Assembly: GCA_026692885.1 (NCBI GenBank)
Contig: JAPLNJ010000401.1
Span: forward strand, 1 to 12,323
Source of the DNA: Planctomycetota bacterium
Lineage (GTDB): Bacteria; Planctomycetota; Planctomycetia; Pirellulales; Pirellulaceae
DNA: 12,323 bases
Direction: 5' to 3'
Shown: one piece after another, positions 6,395 to 12,323 of the stretch
Numbering within the stretch: the stretch's first letter is position 1
Layout of the letters: every line of letters begins with the position of its first letter
Made by a program: the position numbers and the translations under genes
The notes under the pieces: model-generated
What the model was told of the DNA's origin: nothing
What the model saw: only the letters and a program-made list of their open reading frames with translations
Database searches by the model: none

Positions 6395-9292
6395 TCAGTA
6401 GCTGGCGACAACCACCGCTTTTCCCATCAACCCCGCCAACTCGATGACCTCCTTGTCCGGGTTGAACCGCTTCCATGCCTGGCCGTTCACCGTGACGCTT
6501 CGGATCGGCATCTGCCGCGGATGACGCAGCCGCACGAGCACGGTTTGCAGAGGCTGGCGGGAGGGAATCTCGATCGTCGCGGTGATGGCGCCGTGGTCCA
6601 CGTCCGAGACGATCTCGTAGGCCGCGGTTCCGAAATAAGTCGGCGCGTTCTTGATGGAGATTCGCTTGCCGGCCTCGAGCCATGGCCGCGGTGTGCCGCG
6701 AGCGATCCATAGTGATGGGCCTTCCTCCATCACCAGCAGGTTGCGGAAGTTCTCCAGGAACCAACCGGCCGTGCCGTTGTCGGGCCCTGCACACGCCGCA
6801 TATTGACCCCATTGTCCCCACTCCCACAGCTTGCCGTCGGCGCCGACCATGACGGCGTAGGAGTTCATCCAGAACCGCAGGAAATTCGGCACATCGTCCT
6901 GCAGCAGGTAGATGTTGGCGTTGTGCGAGGCCTTGGGGAGACTGGCTCCATAGCTGTTCCAGAACCAGGCGTCGGCAGTGGACAGCCCCTTCTTCTTTCG
7001 CGCCTCCTCCAACTCACGCACTGCGCTGGCAGAGGTGCCGACTTCCTCCATGACATCCAGCGTCCCTACCATGCGGGCGTTGTTGGCGTCCAACGCCGCA
7101 AACGGCTCGGCCAATGGCAACGCTCCCAGGATCACGTCGCCCTGCGGACGGCCGACGGACGGGAACTCCAAAGCCAGCATCAGACCTCGGGTGTAGGCGG
7201 CAAGGGGGACGAAACTGCGGTAGACGCCGTCGCGTCCGATTCGCACCGGAGAAAGGGCGGCTTCCCGCTCCACGGCCCGCCGAATGTCCCGGCGGAACGC
7301 GTCCGCCTCGGCGCGGTACTTCCGGCCGGCCTCCGCATCGAACTCCGCCAGCGCGTCGGCGAAGCGTTGCAGCCCCTGGAGCGAAAAGCCGTTGTCGCAG
7401 TAGTACCAGCGCCAGTCACTGGACGGTAAAGCGTAATCGCCCAGCATGTACGGCGGCATCAGGCCCGCCACCAGCAACTCCTGGCGGTTGGGCACGTCCT
7501 GCATGTAGGAGGTCCGCTGGCGGATGATCCAGTCCGCCGCCGCCTGCAAGCGAGCGCGGTGGCGCTGGAACCATTCCTTATCGCCGGTCAGGAAGTAGCG
7601 TTCCGCCATGCCGAAGAGCAGCCGGCCCGTCGAGGCGTGGGTGCCGTCATGGCTGTATCCCATGCCGTGCCGTACGCTGGTCGCCCATTCCAGAGCTCCG
7701 TCGCCATCGGAGTAATCGCCGTCGGCCTTGGCTCCCGGAGACTTCAGGAAATGCTGGTACACTTTGTCGGCCTCGTCGTGCAGCCCGACCATGTCCATCT
7801 GGCGAGCCACCCGGCCTACTTCGAACGCCAGGCCGCCCCACATGTGCCGGCCGCGCAATTGATTCGAGGCGGCGCGCCAGGCATCCGTCCAGCGGGCGTC
7901 GGAAAGCTGCACTTGCATGGGCGGGTCTTCCACTTTGGGAAACGGCGGCACGGCCGTCCCCTCCGGGCAACGCCACAAGCGAGCCTCCCGCATCAGTTCG
8001 TCCCAGGAGGCGGCCTCGCGATGTTCGCGGGTCAATTGGCGGATGCTCTTGACGTTCTTGGCCGTCAGTTCCGCCGCGAACTGCCGGGCGGTCGTCCCGC
8101 TGCCGGCTTTGACGATGAACAGGCCGCGCTCCGGGATCAGCACGGGGCCTTTCTCGACATCCACGGGACGGAACGTGACTCCACCCGTTTTCGTCCAGAG
8201 AGTCACTCGACTGTCCAGACAGGGATCGGGGACCTCAGGGCCCGGCCCGGTGGTGTCGAACAGGACCGACCTGGTAACTGCAGGCGTATCCAAAACGCGC
8301 CGGTCGCCGGGGACATACACGAGCGGCAGCACGATCCCGTGCCGGCCCGCGCCCGCGGCGCGGGATTGCCAGGCGTGCGGGCCGGTGACGGTCGTTCCCG
8401 TGTCGCCCGCCAACGGCGAAACGGGGCCGATCAGGCTCAGATCCGTTTCCAGCCGCCCGTCAACATCGGTTTTTTCGGAGCCGGATTGGAATCCCCATTC
8501 AATTTCCACATCCAGCCGTTTCCATGTTCCGACCGTCGAGCTGATCAGCCGGATGCTGGGCACGGGAGACTTGGCTCCCTTGGGCGTTCTTTCGTCCTCG
8601 CAGAAGACGGCGACCATTTCCGTGGCGGAGCCTTTCCGGTGTCTCCGGCCGGCCACGGTCGGAATCTGTTCGATGCCCACATGGTTGTAGGTCCAAGTCC
8701 GGCGGTCCGCCGAGATCTCGGGCTGGCCCAGGATCTCATCGTTGCACCAACCAAACCAGCCGAACGCCGTGGGATACACCCGAACCTCTACGGCGTCGGG
8801 CGAGGGGACTTCCTGACCGGCCGGCCAACAGAGTTCCACGCGATAGTCCGCCAATCGCACCGACCACAACAGCCCCGCGAGCAACCGGCCTCGTGGTTTC
8901 GGGGGCAACGCCGTGATCAGGTCGGGCATGTCATAGTGCTCGCTCTTCAGCGCTCCGGCGCCCACTTGACCGAGGGCGGGTCGATACACCGTGTCGATCC
9001 GCTCGAGTCGCCGCGGGATAAAGTAGGCTTCGGGCTTCTCCTGCACCGCCCGATCGGCCTGCCAGGCATAAGCCCACGGCGCGATGTCCACCGGCTGGCC
9101 CTGAAGCTTGTCCAAAGCGGACTTGTCGACGGCCATCGGTCCCGCCCCCGGCAGGTCCGCGGCCAACGTCGCATCGGCATCGCCCGTTGAAAGGGCACCG
9201 CACAACAGGACCGTGCTCACACAGATTGTCATCCAGAACGGTAGGATGGCTCTGGACTGTTCTCGCTCAAAGCGTGCGCACTTTGCGTTCAT
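6395..9292 (-). CDS. Secreted six-hairpin-type glycoside hydrolase
   Basis: This encodes 965 residues. The ATG at 9292 has AGGAG (9301-9305) at an 8-nt spacing. Residues about 15-45 contain a hydrophobic segment (ILPFWMTICVSTVLLCGAL) acting as a signal peptide or anchor. Residues about 50-430 look beta-rich and probably form the N-terminal sandwich. Residues about 464-860 are helix-rich with the look of an (alpha/alpha)6 barrel, including DGDGALEWATS (near 530), HDGTHAS (near 548) and WRWYYCDNGFSLQGL. The end, from about 877, is a beta domain (TVLVRLRHP, SVTVNGQAWKRF) like the C-terminal domains of GH78- and GH95-type enzymes. Acid residues in the DGDGALEW/HDGTH region are catalytic candidates only. 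The family and substrate cannot be fixed. It lies 48 bp after a ribokinase gene on the same strand, so released sugar could feed that kinase. It converges on the propeller genes. Confidence 0.82.
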   Translation of the reverse strand: MNAKCARFEREQSRAILPFWMTICVSTVLLCGALSTGDADATLAADLPGAGPMAVDKSALDKLQGQPVDIAPWAYAWQADRAVQEKPEAYFIPRRLERIDTVYRPALGQVGAGALKSEHYDMPDLITALPPKPRGRLLAGLLWSVRLADYRVELCWPAGQEVPSPDAVEVRVYPTAFGWFGWCNDEILGQPEISADRRTWTYNHVGIEQIPTVAGRRHRKGSATEMVAVFCEDERTPKGAKSPVPSIRLISSTVGTWKRLDVEIEWGFQSGSEKTDVDGRLETDLSLIGPVSPLAGDTGTTVTGPHAWQSRAAGAGRHGIVLPLVYVPGDRRVLDTPAVTRSVLFDTTGPGPEVPDPCLDSRVTLWTKTGGVTFRPVDVEKGPVLIPERGLFIVKAGSGTTARQFAAELTAKNVKSIRQLTREHREAASWDELMREARLWRCPEGTAVPPFPKVEDPPMQVQLSDARWTDAWRAASNQLRGRHMWGGLAFEVGRVARQMDMVGLHDEADKVYQHFLKSPGAKADGDYSDGDGALEWATSVRHGMGYSHDGTHASTGRLLFGMAERYFLTGDKEWFQRHRARLQAAADWIIRQRTSYMQDVPNRQELLVAGLMPPYMLGDYALPSSDWRWYYCDNGFSLQGLQRFADALAEFDAEAGRKYRAEADAFRRDIRRAVEREAALSPVRIGRDGVYRSFVPLAAYTRGLMLALEFPSVGRPQGDVILGALPLAEPFAALDANNARMVGTLDVMEEVGTSASAVRELEEARKKKGLSTADAWFWNSYGASLPKASHNANIYLLQDDVPNFLRFWMNSYAVMVGADGKLWEWGQWGQYAACAGPDNGTAGWFLENFRNLLVMEEGPSLWIARGTPRPWLEAGKRISIKNAPTYFGTAAYEIVSDVDHGAITATIEIPSRQPLQTVLVRLRHPRQMPIRSVTVNGQAWKRFNPDKEVIELAGLMGKAVVVASY

Positions 9293-9340: not shown

Positions 9341-10312
9341 TCACGTGCCTCCTGTCTCTCGTAAGAACCGCTCGATCTCCTGACGCGACGGGATCGACGG
9401 TTGTGCGCCCAGGCGCGTGACGCAAATCGCAGCCGCTGCGTTGGCGAATCGGACGGCTTGTTCCAGCGGTCGGTTTTCGACGAGAGCGGCAGCTAGGGCA
9501 CCACAAAACACATCGCCGGCCGCGGTGGCGTCGACGGCCGTTACGATGAAGGCCGGCACGTGCGTCGGCGGACCACCGCAGGCGACGCACACTCCTTGCG
9601 AGCCGAGCGTGATCAGGACCGCTCGGGGGCCGCTCGTTCGTAGTGATTCGGCGGCCTGCGCGGCGCGCGGGAGCGAATCGACGGGGAATCCGCAGAGGAA
9701 CTCCGCTTCCGACTCGTTGACAACCAAGTAGGCGACGCTTCGCAGACCGGCCTCGGACACCTCGCGGGCCGGCGCCAGATTCAGCAGGATCGGGCGTTGC
9801 CGCTGTGCGGCCAGTTCCAGGACATATTCCAGCGTTTCGGAGAGGACCTCGCACTGGAGCACGATCATCGCGGCATCGCTGATCAGCGTCCGGACCTGAT
9901 GGATGTGGTCGCGGATCAGCCGGTAGTTCGCGCCGGGGGCCACGGAAAGGTAGTTGTCGCCCCGGTCGCCGACCATCACCAGAGCCGTGCCGCTGGCGAC
10001 ACCGGCGGCCGTGAACACGAAGTCAGTGTTGACTCCGGCGGCCTGCAAATTGTCGATGATGGCCGCCCCGTAACGATCGTCACCGACGCAGTTCACGAAA
10101 TGGACGTCGCCACCAGCCCGGGCAGCAGCGACCGCCTGGTTGGCTCCCTTGCCGCCGAAAGTCTGCAAGAAGGTCGCATCCGTAACCGTCTCGCCGCGTT
10201 GGGGAAGGTGGGGCATCTTCATGATAAAGTCGACGTTGGAGCTGCCGACGACGACGATCTGCCGAGCTTTCTCGCAGGCATCGTTTTGCTGGTGGGAGAG
10301 GTCTGGTTCCAT
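9341..10312 (-). CDS. rbsK: Ribokinase (PfkB family)
   Basis: This encodes 323 residues, close to the usual ribokinase length of about 300-310. It phosphorylates ribose (or a related sugar) with ATP in the cytoplasm. The N-terminal strand carries VVVGSSNVDFIMKMP. PfkB signature 1 is GGKGANQAVAAARAG from residue 53. Further motifs are NESE, LITLGSQGV and signature 2 DATAAGDVFCGALAAAL (261 onward), with D267 as the expected catalytic base. The C-terminal GAQPSIPSRQEI is typical of RbsK. Signature 2 reads DATAAGD rather than the commoner DTTGAGD, but Escherichia coli RbsK also has an AAGD form. The ATG at 10312 gives a normal N-terminus although only a weak GGCGAG lies upstream, and the in-frame extension upstream is not plausible protein. 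It follows the GH2/kinase chimera by 44 bp and precedes the glycosidase by 48 bp. Confidence 0.9.
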   Translation of the reverse strand: MEPDLSHQQNDACEKARQIVVVGSSNVDFIMKMPHLPQRGETVTDATFLQTFGGKGANQAVAAARAGGDVHFVNCVGDDRYGAAIIDNLQAAGVNTDFVFTAAGVASGTALVMVGDRGDNYLSVAPGANYRLIRDHIHQVRTLISDAAMIVLQCEVLSETLEYVLELAAQRQRPILLNLAPAREVSEAGLRSVAYLVVNESEAEFLCGFPVDSLPRAAQAAESLRTSGPRAVLITLGSQGVCVACGGPPTHVPAFIVTAVDATAAGDVFCGALAAALVENRPLEQAVRFANAAAAICVTRLGAQPSIPSRQEIERFLRETGGT

Positions 10313-10356: not shown

Positions 10357-11781
10357 TCAGGGAGCGGTTCCGAGGATGTCCGCCAGTTCCTCGCGGTCGG
10401 GAAAGGACGTTTGCGTGCCCGGCTTCAGCACCGATCGCGTGGCGACGGCGCCCGCCCAGCGCGCGGCTTCGTTCAGCGGCACGCCGGCGGCCAGGAAATA
10501 GGCCAGGCTGCCCACGTAGGCGTCGCCGGCTCCTGTCGTGTCCACCGCGCGCACCGGCTGCACAGGAACGTGCTCCGCGCGGTGCGGGGTCACCACCAGG
10601 TTGCCACGCTGGCCGAGCGTGAGAATCACCGTGCCCGCCCCGCGGCGCAACAACTCGCGAGCGGCCGCCTCGCACTCGGCCAGCGACGACACCGGCAAGC
10701 CGGTGAGCAGCTCGGTTTCGCTTTCGTTCGGGCAGAGGATATCGGAGAGGGCGTAGATTTCCGGCGGCAGCTCGGTCCGGGCAGGGGCCGGGTTGAAGAT
10801 CGTGCGCACGCCTTCCTGCCGCGCCAAACGCAAGGCGGCCAGGCTGACGGCCACGGGCACTTCCAGTTGACAGACCAGCACGTCCGAGGCGGCGATCTCC
10901 GGTCGGGCGGCCTCGATCTCTTCGGCCGTCAGCAAGTCGTTCGCCCCCGTGACGATGGTGGAGTTGTCGATCGCCACCTGCAGCCGCACCCGGCCGGTGG
11001 CCGGGTCGGCTTGGGCAAACACGTCGGTCACGCGCACCACCGGTTGCCGGCGCAGTTCCACCGGCAGCAGAATGCCGCCCGAATTCGCGTTGCCGCCGAA
11101 CGCATAGTGATCGGCATTCTTGAACGAGTGCGGAATCTCCCGGATGACGAATCCATCTACCGGCTGGTGGCCGGGATTGATAACCCGCACCGCCAGCAGG
11201 TTCTTGCCGGAGGCGAGCAAGGCGTCGCTGACATCGAACTCGAACGGCGCATCCGAACCCTCGTGGTCGCCCAAGCGAGTGCCGTTGAGCCAGGCCTCGG
11301 CGAAGTAGTCCACGGCGCCAAAGCAGAGCCGCCAGCGGTGCCCGAAACTGGCTGCGGGGCTGGCGAATTCCGTCCAATACCAAGCCGCCCCGTGATATCC
11401 CGAAAAAGACTGCTGGATGGTCGCCGGCACCTTCGTCGGCTGGGCCTCCTCCCGCGGCGCGGCGAACCACTTCGCCTCGCGCCCCTCGTTCTTCGGATCG
11501 ATCGCGATCCGCCAGCCGTCGCCATCAAGGGATTGCACGAGCGAAGTCGACGGCTCAGCGCCGGCCGCGGAACTGCTCAGCGGCGCGAGCAGGAGAACGT
11601 TCAGGAGGAGCTGACAAAAAGATGGGCGGCAGAAAAGTGGGGGACGGATCTTCATCTTTTTGCCGGACATGTTTCTGCCGTCTTCCTGAGTGGACGTGAG
11701 CGGCGTTCTCATTGGCATGGCTGCCAAGCCAAGACATCCGACAGCGAACACGAGAGCAGGACGCACGATGTGTGATTTCAT
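10357..11781 (-). CDS. Chimeric protein: GH2 sugar-binding domain joined to the C-terminal half of a ribokinase
   Basis: This is a 474-residue open frame. The ATG at 11781 has AGGAG (11790-11794) at 8 nt. Residues 1-35 form a signal-peptide-like start. A palindromic repeat then encodes roughly residues 34-57, followed by a second hydrophobic stretch (LLLNVLLLAPLSSSAAGA). Residues about 80-265 match the GH2 N-terminal jelly-roll sugar-binding domain (AWYWTEF near 134, FAEAWLNGTRLGDHEG, LLAVRVINPGHQPVDGFV). At about residues 272-277 the sequence changes in frame to a ribokinase C-terminal half (TGANDLLTAEEIE, FNPAPA, NESETELLTGL, LTLGQRG, VDTTGAGDAYVGSLAYFL with D414 and D420). The kinase N-terminal ~120 residues, including the GGKGANQA signature, are missing, as are the GH2 catalytic barrel and acids. 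Neither enzyme activity is likely. It may be an intact-looking relic of a deletion, a real fusion or an assembly join. It differs clearly from the adjacent ribokinase, so that gene is not the donor. Confidence 0.75.
   Translation of the reverse strand: MKSHIVRPALVFAVGCLGLAAMPMRTPLTSTQEDGRNMSGKKMKIRPPLFCRPSFCQLLLNVLLLAPLSSSAAGAEPSTSLVQSLDGDGWRIAIDPKNEGREAKWFAAPREEAQPTKVPATIQQSFSGYHGAAWYWTEFASPAASFGHRWRLCFGAVDYFAEAWLNGTRLGDHEGSDAPFEFDVSDALLASGKNLLAVRVINPGHQPVDGFVIREIPHSFKNADHYAFGGNANSGGILLPVELRRQPVVRVTDVFAQADPATGRVRLQVAIDNSTIVTGANDLLTAEEIEAARPEIAASDVLVCQLEVPVAVSLAALRLARQEGVRTIFNPAPARTELPPEIYALSDILCPNESETELLTGLPVSSLAECEAAARELLRRGAGTVILTLGQRGNLVVTPHRAEHVPVQPVRAVDTTGAGDAYVGSLAYFLAAGVPLNEAARWAGAVATRSVLKPGTQTSFPDREELADILGTAP
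11613..11680 (+). repeat. Palindromic repeat of CGGCARAAARATG-like units, copy 1 (inside a coding frame)
   Basis: The left arm has two direct units, GACAAAAAGATGGG and CGGCAGAAAAGTGG. The right arm, read on the minus strand, has CGGCAGAAACATG and CCGGCAAAAAGATG. The two arms are inverted relative to each other and can fold. A second copy lies at 12157-12229 in the same orientation. On the minus strand this copy stays open and encodes roughly MSGKKMKIRPPLFCRPSFCQ within the 5' part of the GH2/ribokinase frame, so it was probably inserted there or the signal peptide was rebuilt around it. Confidence 0.65.
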
Positions 11782-11789
11782 AAGTGGGT

Positions 11790-11794
11790 CTCCT
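11790..11794 (-). promoter_or_regulatory. Strong Shine-Dalgarno site of the GH2/ribokinase chimera
   Basis: AGGAG on the minus strand lies 8 nt upstream of the ATG at 11781, within the 22-bp gap after the SDR remnant. Internal ATGs in the repeat-derived segment (MSGKK, MKIRPP) have no comparable site. This favours 11781 as the start and suggests that the frame is, or recently was, translated. Confidence 0.6.
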
Positions 11795-11803
11795 AATATT
11801 CGT

Positions 11804-11983
11804 TCAGTCCGATCCCGCGATCACGGCCGTTTCGCCAAGCCCTTCCGGTCCCATCGCGAGATAGCCACCATCCACCATAAGCGTCGTACCGGTGATGAAC
11901 GAGGCGTCATCACTGAGCAGGAACAGCGTGGGGCGGGCGACCTCAATGGCTTGACCCATGCGGCGGAGCATGTGGTACTTGCC
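11804..11983 (-). pseudogene. 3' remnant of a short-chain dehydrogenase/reductase gene
   Basis: The last ~59 codons of an SDR gene are visible: RMGQAIEVARPTLFLLSDD, then SFITGTTLMVDGGYLA, ending AVIAGSD with stop TGA at 11804-11806. This is the conserved C-terminal block of classical SDR oxidoreductases (after the active site), which are usually about 250 residues. The Rossmann nucleotide-binding motif and the YxxxK catalytic motif are absent. The frame can be followed to about 11983 (GKYHM), where it meets the first codons of an amidohydrolase read in a different frame. The stop is 22 bp upstream of the GH2/kinase chimera start. It is very probably a non-functional remnant, unless the join is an assembly error. 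Confidence 0.72.
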
Positions 11984-12027
11984 CCGATGTGAATGTGCGC
12001 ATCGATGATGGCAATCTGCTGTTTCAT
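11983..12027 (-). pseudogene. 5' remnant of an amidohydrolase gene
   Basis: Fifteen codons from ATG at 12027 read MKQQIAIIDAHIHIG. The IDAHIHIG block is the typical first metal-binding strand (HxH) of amidohydrolase-superfamily TIM-barrel enzymes, which are normally about 270-400 residues. After about 11983 this frame loses similarity and the sequence continues as the SDR C-terminus in another frame. The ATG overlaps the stop of the preceding coding remnant as ATGA, a genuine operon-type junction, so the start itself looks authentic. The rest of the gene is missing. Confidence 0.6.
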
Positions 12028-12140
12028 AGTTGGGCAACGATCTCTGGGGTTGCAGGAGTTGGGATCACGGCGATGCCACTACCGTCGTCGGGACGCGGTA
12101 GGTGCGCATCTTCGAGAAATAGATGGGCCTTTGGTGTGGG
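12024..12140 (-). pseudogene. 3' remnant of an unidentified coding sequence
   Basis: An open frame of 38 codons ends with stop TGA at 12024-12026. Its last part reads RPDDGSGIAVIPTPATPEIV then AQL, which looks like a real protein C-terminus. The stop overlaps the amidohydrolase start by ATGA. Going upstream, the frame meets a stop (TAA, 12141-12143), just before the palindromic repeat at 12157, so the gene is cut off at or near that repeat. I do not recognise the family. Confidence 0.45.
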
Positions 12141-12156
12141 TTATGAAAACGTGGTC

Positions 12157-12229
12157 GGCAAAAAGATGGGCGGCTAAAGATGGCAGACAGAAGGCCTGAA
12201 TGCATATTTTGCCGCACATATTTCTGCCG
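12157..12229 (+). repeat. Palindromic repeat of CGGCARAAARATG-like units, copy 2
   Basis: It starts GGCAAAAAGATGGGCGGC, the same 15-base core (AAAAAGATGGGCGGC preceded by C) as copy 1 at 11613-11680, and ends ATTTTGCCGCACATATTTCTGCCG against TTTTTGCCGGACATGTTTCTGCCG there, with a more divergent centre. The two copies are in direct orientation, about 540 bp apart, and bracket the remnant zone. It lies between two truncated coding remnants. Confidence 0.65.
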
Positions 12230-12238
12230 GTACTCCGC

Positions 12239-12323
12239 CTACTGGATGGTCGTGAACGTGACCTGCCGGTGAGTGACGTTGGCCCAATGTATGGCCTTGA
12301 GCGTGGTGTGCTGAAGCAGTTTG
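12239..12323 (-). CDS. Partial 3' end of an unidentified gene running off the window
   Basis: A frame enters from the right edge and ends at TAG (12239-12241), giving 27 residues: KLLQHTTLKAIHWANVTHRQ followed by VTFTTIQ. It could be the C-terminus of a real gene, since it stops cleanly just before the palindromic repeat. The fragment is too short to name a family or to tell whether the gene is intact beyond the window. Confidence 0.35.
   Translation of the reverse strand, partial: KLLQHTTLKAIHWANVTHRQVTFTTIQ

Follow-up and report, generated by a model that had tools for sequence, protein, structure and literature searches.

What is encoded by an open reading frame that runs from a glycoside hydrolase family 2 (GH2) sugar-binding domain straight into the back of a ribokinase: a new kind of enzyme, or an accident to two genes? 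The question is raised by a locus in the window, the whole 12,323-nucleotide stretch of DNA analysed here, for which a preliminary description had proposed an in-frame join of two such pieces. Analysis of the minus strand bore out the uninterrupted frame: from 11781 to 10357, stop codon included, it forms a single open reading frame of 474 codons without an internal stop (Table 1). An AGGAGA motif, seen by eye at 11794–11789 and 7 nt ahead of the ATG, agrees with the ribosome-binding site described earlier.

Table 1 Features of the chimeric reading frame and its surroundings in the window
Feature	Position	Strand	Basis
Second ribokinase, uninterrupted, directly downstream; distant paralogue	9341..10312	minus	TIGR02152
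Chimeric ORF, 474 aa: GH2 N-terminal piece and PfkB C-terminal piece	10357..11781	minus	ORF and Pfam
Ribokinase C-terminal part, residues 276–462	10396..10956	minus	Pfam PfkB; P0001 match
Join, residues 273–275, Asn-Ser-Thr	10957..10965	minus	Pairwise alignments to P0132 and P0001; alignments A1 and A3
Glyco_hydro_2_N sugar-binding jelly roll, residues 83–220	11122..11535	minus	Pfam, E 1.4e-15
REP-like palindromic repeat, 77 bases, inside the ORF, coding for about residues 34–59	11605..11681	minus	RNA fold z -2.74
Signal-like N-terminus MKSHIVRPALVFAVGCLGLAAMPM, with no convincing counterpart in aligned GH2 relatives	11710..11781	minus	Alignments; signal by eye
SDR gene stump, only PF13561 positions 197–235 of 236	11804..11983	minus	Pfam, E 4.6e-11
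Possible amidohydrolase start, IIDAHIHIG	11983..12027	minus	By eye
Second REP-like palindromic repeat copy, upstream	12140..12232	minus	RNA fold z -4.98

Pfam analysis revealed a GH2 jelly roll (PF02837) scoring 58 bits against a cut-off of 28, and a PfkB match with an E-value of 1.3e-34 that covers profile positions 107–301 of 302. At an E-value of 0.001, neither the GH2 Ig domain (PF00703) nor the TIM barrel with the catalytic acids (PF02836) was matched in the 474-aa protein, in line with the earlier claim that the GH2 piece lacks its catalytic barrel. In the kinase piece the sequence DTTGAGD is intact at 10522–10542, as had been described; we take DTxGAGD to be the C-terminal PfkB signature carrying the catalytic Asp. 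The N-terminal kinase half is absent, and with it GGKGAN, presumably a ribokinase motif with a role in ribose binding, at which the aligned ribokinase P0001 reads gfggkganq. With the NCBIfam ribokinase model TIGR02152 the fusion scored 200.2 bits, below the cut-off of 299.65, and it is thus not a full-length ribokinase by this model.

The join was located by pairwise alignment with the closest relatives found for the two halves, which are separate, complete proteins. P0132, the closest GH2 relative among the matches listed, has 1187 aa, is 86% identical over residues 62–272, and carries GH2_N, an Ig domain (193–305) and the barrel PF02836 (312–461). P0001, the closest kinase relative among the matches listed, is a 314-aa ribokinase whose match, spanning 43% of the query, is 92% identical. 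Homology to P0132 ends at Asp-Asn-Ser (P0132 residue 218), and homology to P0001 is clear from Ile-Val-Thr-Gly-Ala-Asn-Asp, fusion Ile276 onward. A PfkB half in mid-protein had been described correctly; it begins at residue 276 with IVTGAND, rather than near residue 277 at TGAND. P0001 reads Arg-Asn-Ser-Ile-Val at the join, and Asn-Ser stands at the join position in both P0132 and P0001, which, as read from the proteins of these relatives, suggests a short sequence common to both parents.

Compared with GH2 hydrolases such as P0132 (PF02837, PF00703, PF02836), the fusion shares a signal-like start (by eye) and the N-terminal jelly roll, but lacks 969 of the 1187 residues, namely the Ig domain from its 27th residue on, the TIM barrel and the C-terminal part. 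With PfkB ribokinases (PF00294; P0001 and human ribokinase 5byc) it has the C-terminal QLE, NESE and DTTGAGD in common, but lacks the first 115 residues as counted on P0001, close to the 120 or so estimated earlier and with GGKGAN among them. Because the cut falls inside the GH2 Ig domain and these kinase residues are gone, neither catalytic unit is whole. Both domains are severed in mid-domain, not at a domain boundary as in a natural fusion, and domain shuffling was rejected as an origin on this ground.

The predicted structure resembles two partial folds. AlphaFold was run on alignment A4, which comprised 27 sequences and in which MAFFT had placed kinase N-termini opposite the GH2 part, giving a mean pLDDT of 74.0 and a pTM of 0.50. 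Local confidence was good in both pieces, the jelly roll being predicted mostly as strands with mean pLDDT values of 77–94 per ten-residue block over residues 81–210. The pLDDT fell below 50 at almost every position from 1 to 76 and at residues 216–231. A Foldseek comparison with the PDB returned ribokinases over about 220 columns, with a TM-score by target length mostly near 0.5 and an rmsd mostly near 14, and beta-glucuronidases with TM-scores of 0.23–0.26 and an rmsd near 20. Given the high rmsd, these are poor as whole matches and fit two partial folds.

A search of a 5.8-billion-sequence collection with the whole protein, as the preliminary description had proposed, gave 3028 matches out of the 7995 candidates with the most words in common. 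All of the best 120 of these 3028 carry PF00294; each of the 120 spans at most half of the query, and no homologue covering both halves is among them. A search with residues 62–272 gave 11 matches when candidate lengths were set by the 474-aa protein and 58 when a longer carrier sequence was used, and PF00294 was found in none of either set (0 of 11 and 0 of 58). Among the named genomes, 23 loci matched the kinase half, one matched the GH2 half, and none of the 24 matched both. These searches for homologues of the join were word-based and cover the matches listed, so that distant copies could be missed. No GH2–ribokinase fusion appeared among the literature titles found. In P0076, P0087, P0093 and P0101 a ribokinase domain likewise sits in a longer, apparently fused protein, with PF01791, which we take to be an aldolase-type domain, also present; at 535–552 aa these have room for a whole kinase and the aldolase-type domain, judged by lengths and domain lists, and the combination is apparently a recurrent fusion.

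The two halves were also traced separately. A relative of the GH2 half was present in 21 of the 392 phylum genomes searched at 1e-15, in 11 of 119 genomes of the family of genome G001 at 1e-50, and in one of seven genomes of the family of G278 at 1e-40. Most of these matches lie within frames of 883–1600 aa, the shorter frames being of 498, 502, 523, 590, 707 and 709 aa. The best matches of the kinase half in named genomes are 60–71% identical and scattered over several phyla, so that this half by itself gives no fixed lineage. At 1e-70, two of the 396 genomes searched in the order of G001 had a relative of the kinase half, and at 1e-60 none of the seven in the family of G278 did. At 1e-5, the kinase half was found in none of 43 GH2 loci (L029–L058 and L061–L073, with flanks reaching about 1.5 kb at most on either side; two GH2 places from the phylum search yielded no locus and were left out).

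The age of the piece was judged from protein comparisons only. In a kinase-half tree of 121 sequences including the window (support for the sister grouping, 0.69), the terminal branch of the window is 0.036, compared with 0.050 for its sister P0001. In a GH2-half tree of 51 sequences including the window (support 0.92; 50 of the 61 matches P0121–P0181 were kept, those covering at least 90% of the query), the corresponding values are 0.060 for the window and 0.058 for its sister P0132. The kinase half has one private residue (1–6 in seven controls) and the GH2 half four (1–12 in seven controls). In each half one of the private residues occupies an alignment column with about 95% conservation, a mild point against the absence of decay; among the controls, one of seven for the kinase and two of seven for GH2 have private changes at such columns, each showing two or three. 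With no clear sign of decay, and neither window branch clearly longer than its sister's, the join appears to be either young or artefactual, consistent with the preliminary description, which took the piece to be young or still expressed. An old pseudogene was rejected because the branches are no clearly longer than those of the sisters. The two halves have GC contents of 0.83 and 0.86 at third codon positions, compared with 0.77–0.84 in four other genes here, a range that the kinase half slightly exceeds; since these values are near those of the other genes, one genome could hold both halves.

The first residues of the frame are harder to place than its two domains. The preliminary description had spoken of an exported GH2 domain; the N-terminus is more tangled than this would imply. 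No convincing counterpart of residues 1 to about 43 was seen in aligned GH2 relatives; pairwise alignments to P0132 and P0133 begin at residues 63 and 59, and in alignment A3 the longer N-termini of P0133 and P0136 sit opposite residues 22–45 without clear likeness. Residues 1–43 have a codon score of -0.073, compared with 0.278 and 0.392 in the two halves, and a third-position GC of 0.63. This N-terminal extension may mark a third gene break, no more than about 1 kb away from the join.

Other damage lies close by, and all that was recognised falls in about the last 2 kb at the right end of the window. The amidohydrolase-like start abuts the SDR stump without a gap and in a different frame, and no Pfam match was found for this 30-aa piece. 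Frames of 965, 575 and 1217 aa and the downstream ribokinase are uninterrupted, and the 965-aa protein could be aligned over residues 54–965. This protein, encoded on the minus strand at 6395–9292, has no Pfam or NCBIfam match at an E-value of 0.001. Positions 12322–12239 appear to hold the tail end of another gene. At the other end of the window, positions 1–926 contain no recognised gene, and short inverted or repeated motifs, for example TAGCTGAACTCGTGAGAGTTCAG, are seen there by eye. Of the two REP-like palindromes, the one inside the frame was matched in folding by three of 200 shuffles and the upstream copy by none of 200. In the order of G001, none of the 296 genomes searched contained the strict 28-base pattern with at most one mismatch. 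When the fetched loci were searched more loosely, the pattern was found in the window and at a single site in L011, which has six differences and looks like a chance match; Rfam gave no match at gathering scores.

Taken together, it is probable that a recent deletion or other short-homology rearrangement made a GH2–ribokinase chimeric pseudogene. In a planctomycete-like genome, an illegitimate deletion, or another rearrangement of that kind, would have brought the front of a secreted GH2 gene onto the final two-thirds of a ribokinase gene, the join falling where Asn-Ser was probably encoded in both parents, and the reading frame would have been kept by chance. The truncated SDR gene and the two palindromes alongside, signs of a rearranged stretch, fit this reading. 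Translation of the frame, if it occurs, would give a protein with an exported jelly roll in front of a Rossmann-type kinase part without its sugar-site half, most likely misfolded and then degraded; it is considered non-functional because both folds are broken. Expression, export, degradation and loss of function are all steps that we infer from the sequence. Chimeric pseudogenes born by deletion occur in bacteria, where the front of one gene is joined to the back of another through short homology; the present case differs from those known in that no sister strain serves to trace its parents, age and mechanism. Both halves keep intact codons, and these and the ribosome-binding motif would also fit an expressed gene; with the good local AlphaFold confidence for both pieces they speak against a pseudogene. 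A deletion between neighbouring genes, here a GH2 gene and a downstream ribokinase gene as the preliminary description had it, would be the simplest origin. The deletion scar does fit better than a selected fusion, since both domains are severed mid-fold; for the adjacency of the parents the evidence is thin. Among 27 GH2 loci (26 fetched loci and L024, many of them on short contigs and hence weak evidence on neighbourhood), GH2 and a P0001-type kinase were not found adjacent, which counts against a deletion. A ribokinase relative lay near the GH2 relative in one (L087), 5.4 kb downstream on the same strand and only 42% identical to P0001. Relatives of the 965-aa neighbour share contigs with GH2 genes at two of the 27 loci (L075 and L082, both of G001), so the GH2 part at least seems at home here; this, with the names of some relatives, is the ground for calling the genome planctomycete-like. 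The downstream ribokinase of the window is a full-length TIGR02152 match (326.9 bits against the cut-off of 299.65, scanned as 9341–10279); as the source of the fused half, by tandem duplication and internal deletion, it was rejected, being only 32% identical in alignment A1.

A serious alternative, although a rather doubtful one, is an assembly or library chimera, in which halves of separate intact genes were wrongly joined in the contig. Such an error would account for the want of a second copy of the join among the matches listed and of decay in either half, and the recognised broken genes all lie within the right 2 kb of the window. The likeness at the join, however, amounts to about two codons at the protein level, a short stretch for a k-mer assembler to be misled by; no more than about 1 kb from the join there are also the SDR stump and the possible N-terminal break, and both halves roughly share their codon composition with the other genes here. 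It is very unlikely that the gene is a selected fusion, with the jelly roll acting as a module for secretion or for docking to sugars and the kinase piece taking on a new, perhaps non-catalytic role. The uninterrupted frame, the ribosome-binding motif, the intact DTTGAGD, the absence of decay signs and the locally confident AlphaFold pieces would suit it, but both domains are severed mid-fold, the sugar-site half of the kinase is gone, the pTM is only 0.50 and no homologue of the join is among the matches listed. Access to ATP is poor outside the cytoplasm, which also speaks against a selected, exported kinase fusion. It is likewise very unlikely that the REP-like palindromes drive repeated rearrangement and that the fusion is one product of a piece-joining locus: the damaged stretch does contain two palindromes, one of them within the frame, and the SDR stump and the signal-like N-terminus sit between them, but some 640 bp separate the join from the closest palindrome, with none seen at the join itself, and the absence of the strict pattern from the 296 genomes searched in the order of G001 gives the repeat no traceable history. 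The fuller version, in which 10357–12232 is a gene-joining locus whose palindromes help to build secreted chimeras and the GH2–ribokinase frame is a young, expressed product of it, is scarcely credible.

Since each piece breaks off inside a fold and the join was not met again among the matches listed, the GH2–ribokinase frame does not look like an enzyme of a new kind; it has the appearance of a recent deletion scar, probably without use, or of an assembly error. Were the join not real, it would mainly be a caution, as automatic annotation could label the frame a ribokinase or a glycosidase despite its incomplete catalytic units. If real, the frame would show what a chimeric gene is like shortly after it arises, before visible decay or selection, with near relatives of both unrelated parent enzymes at hand for comparison.
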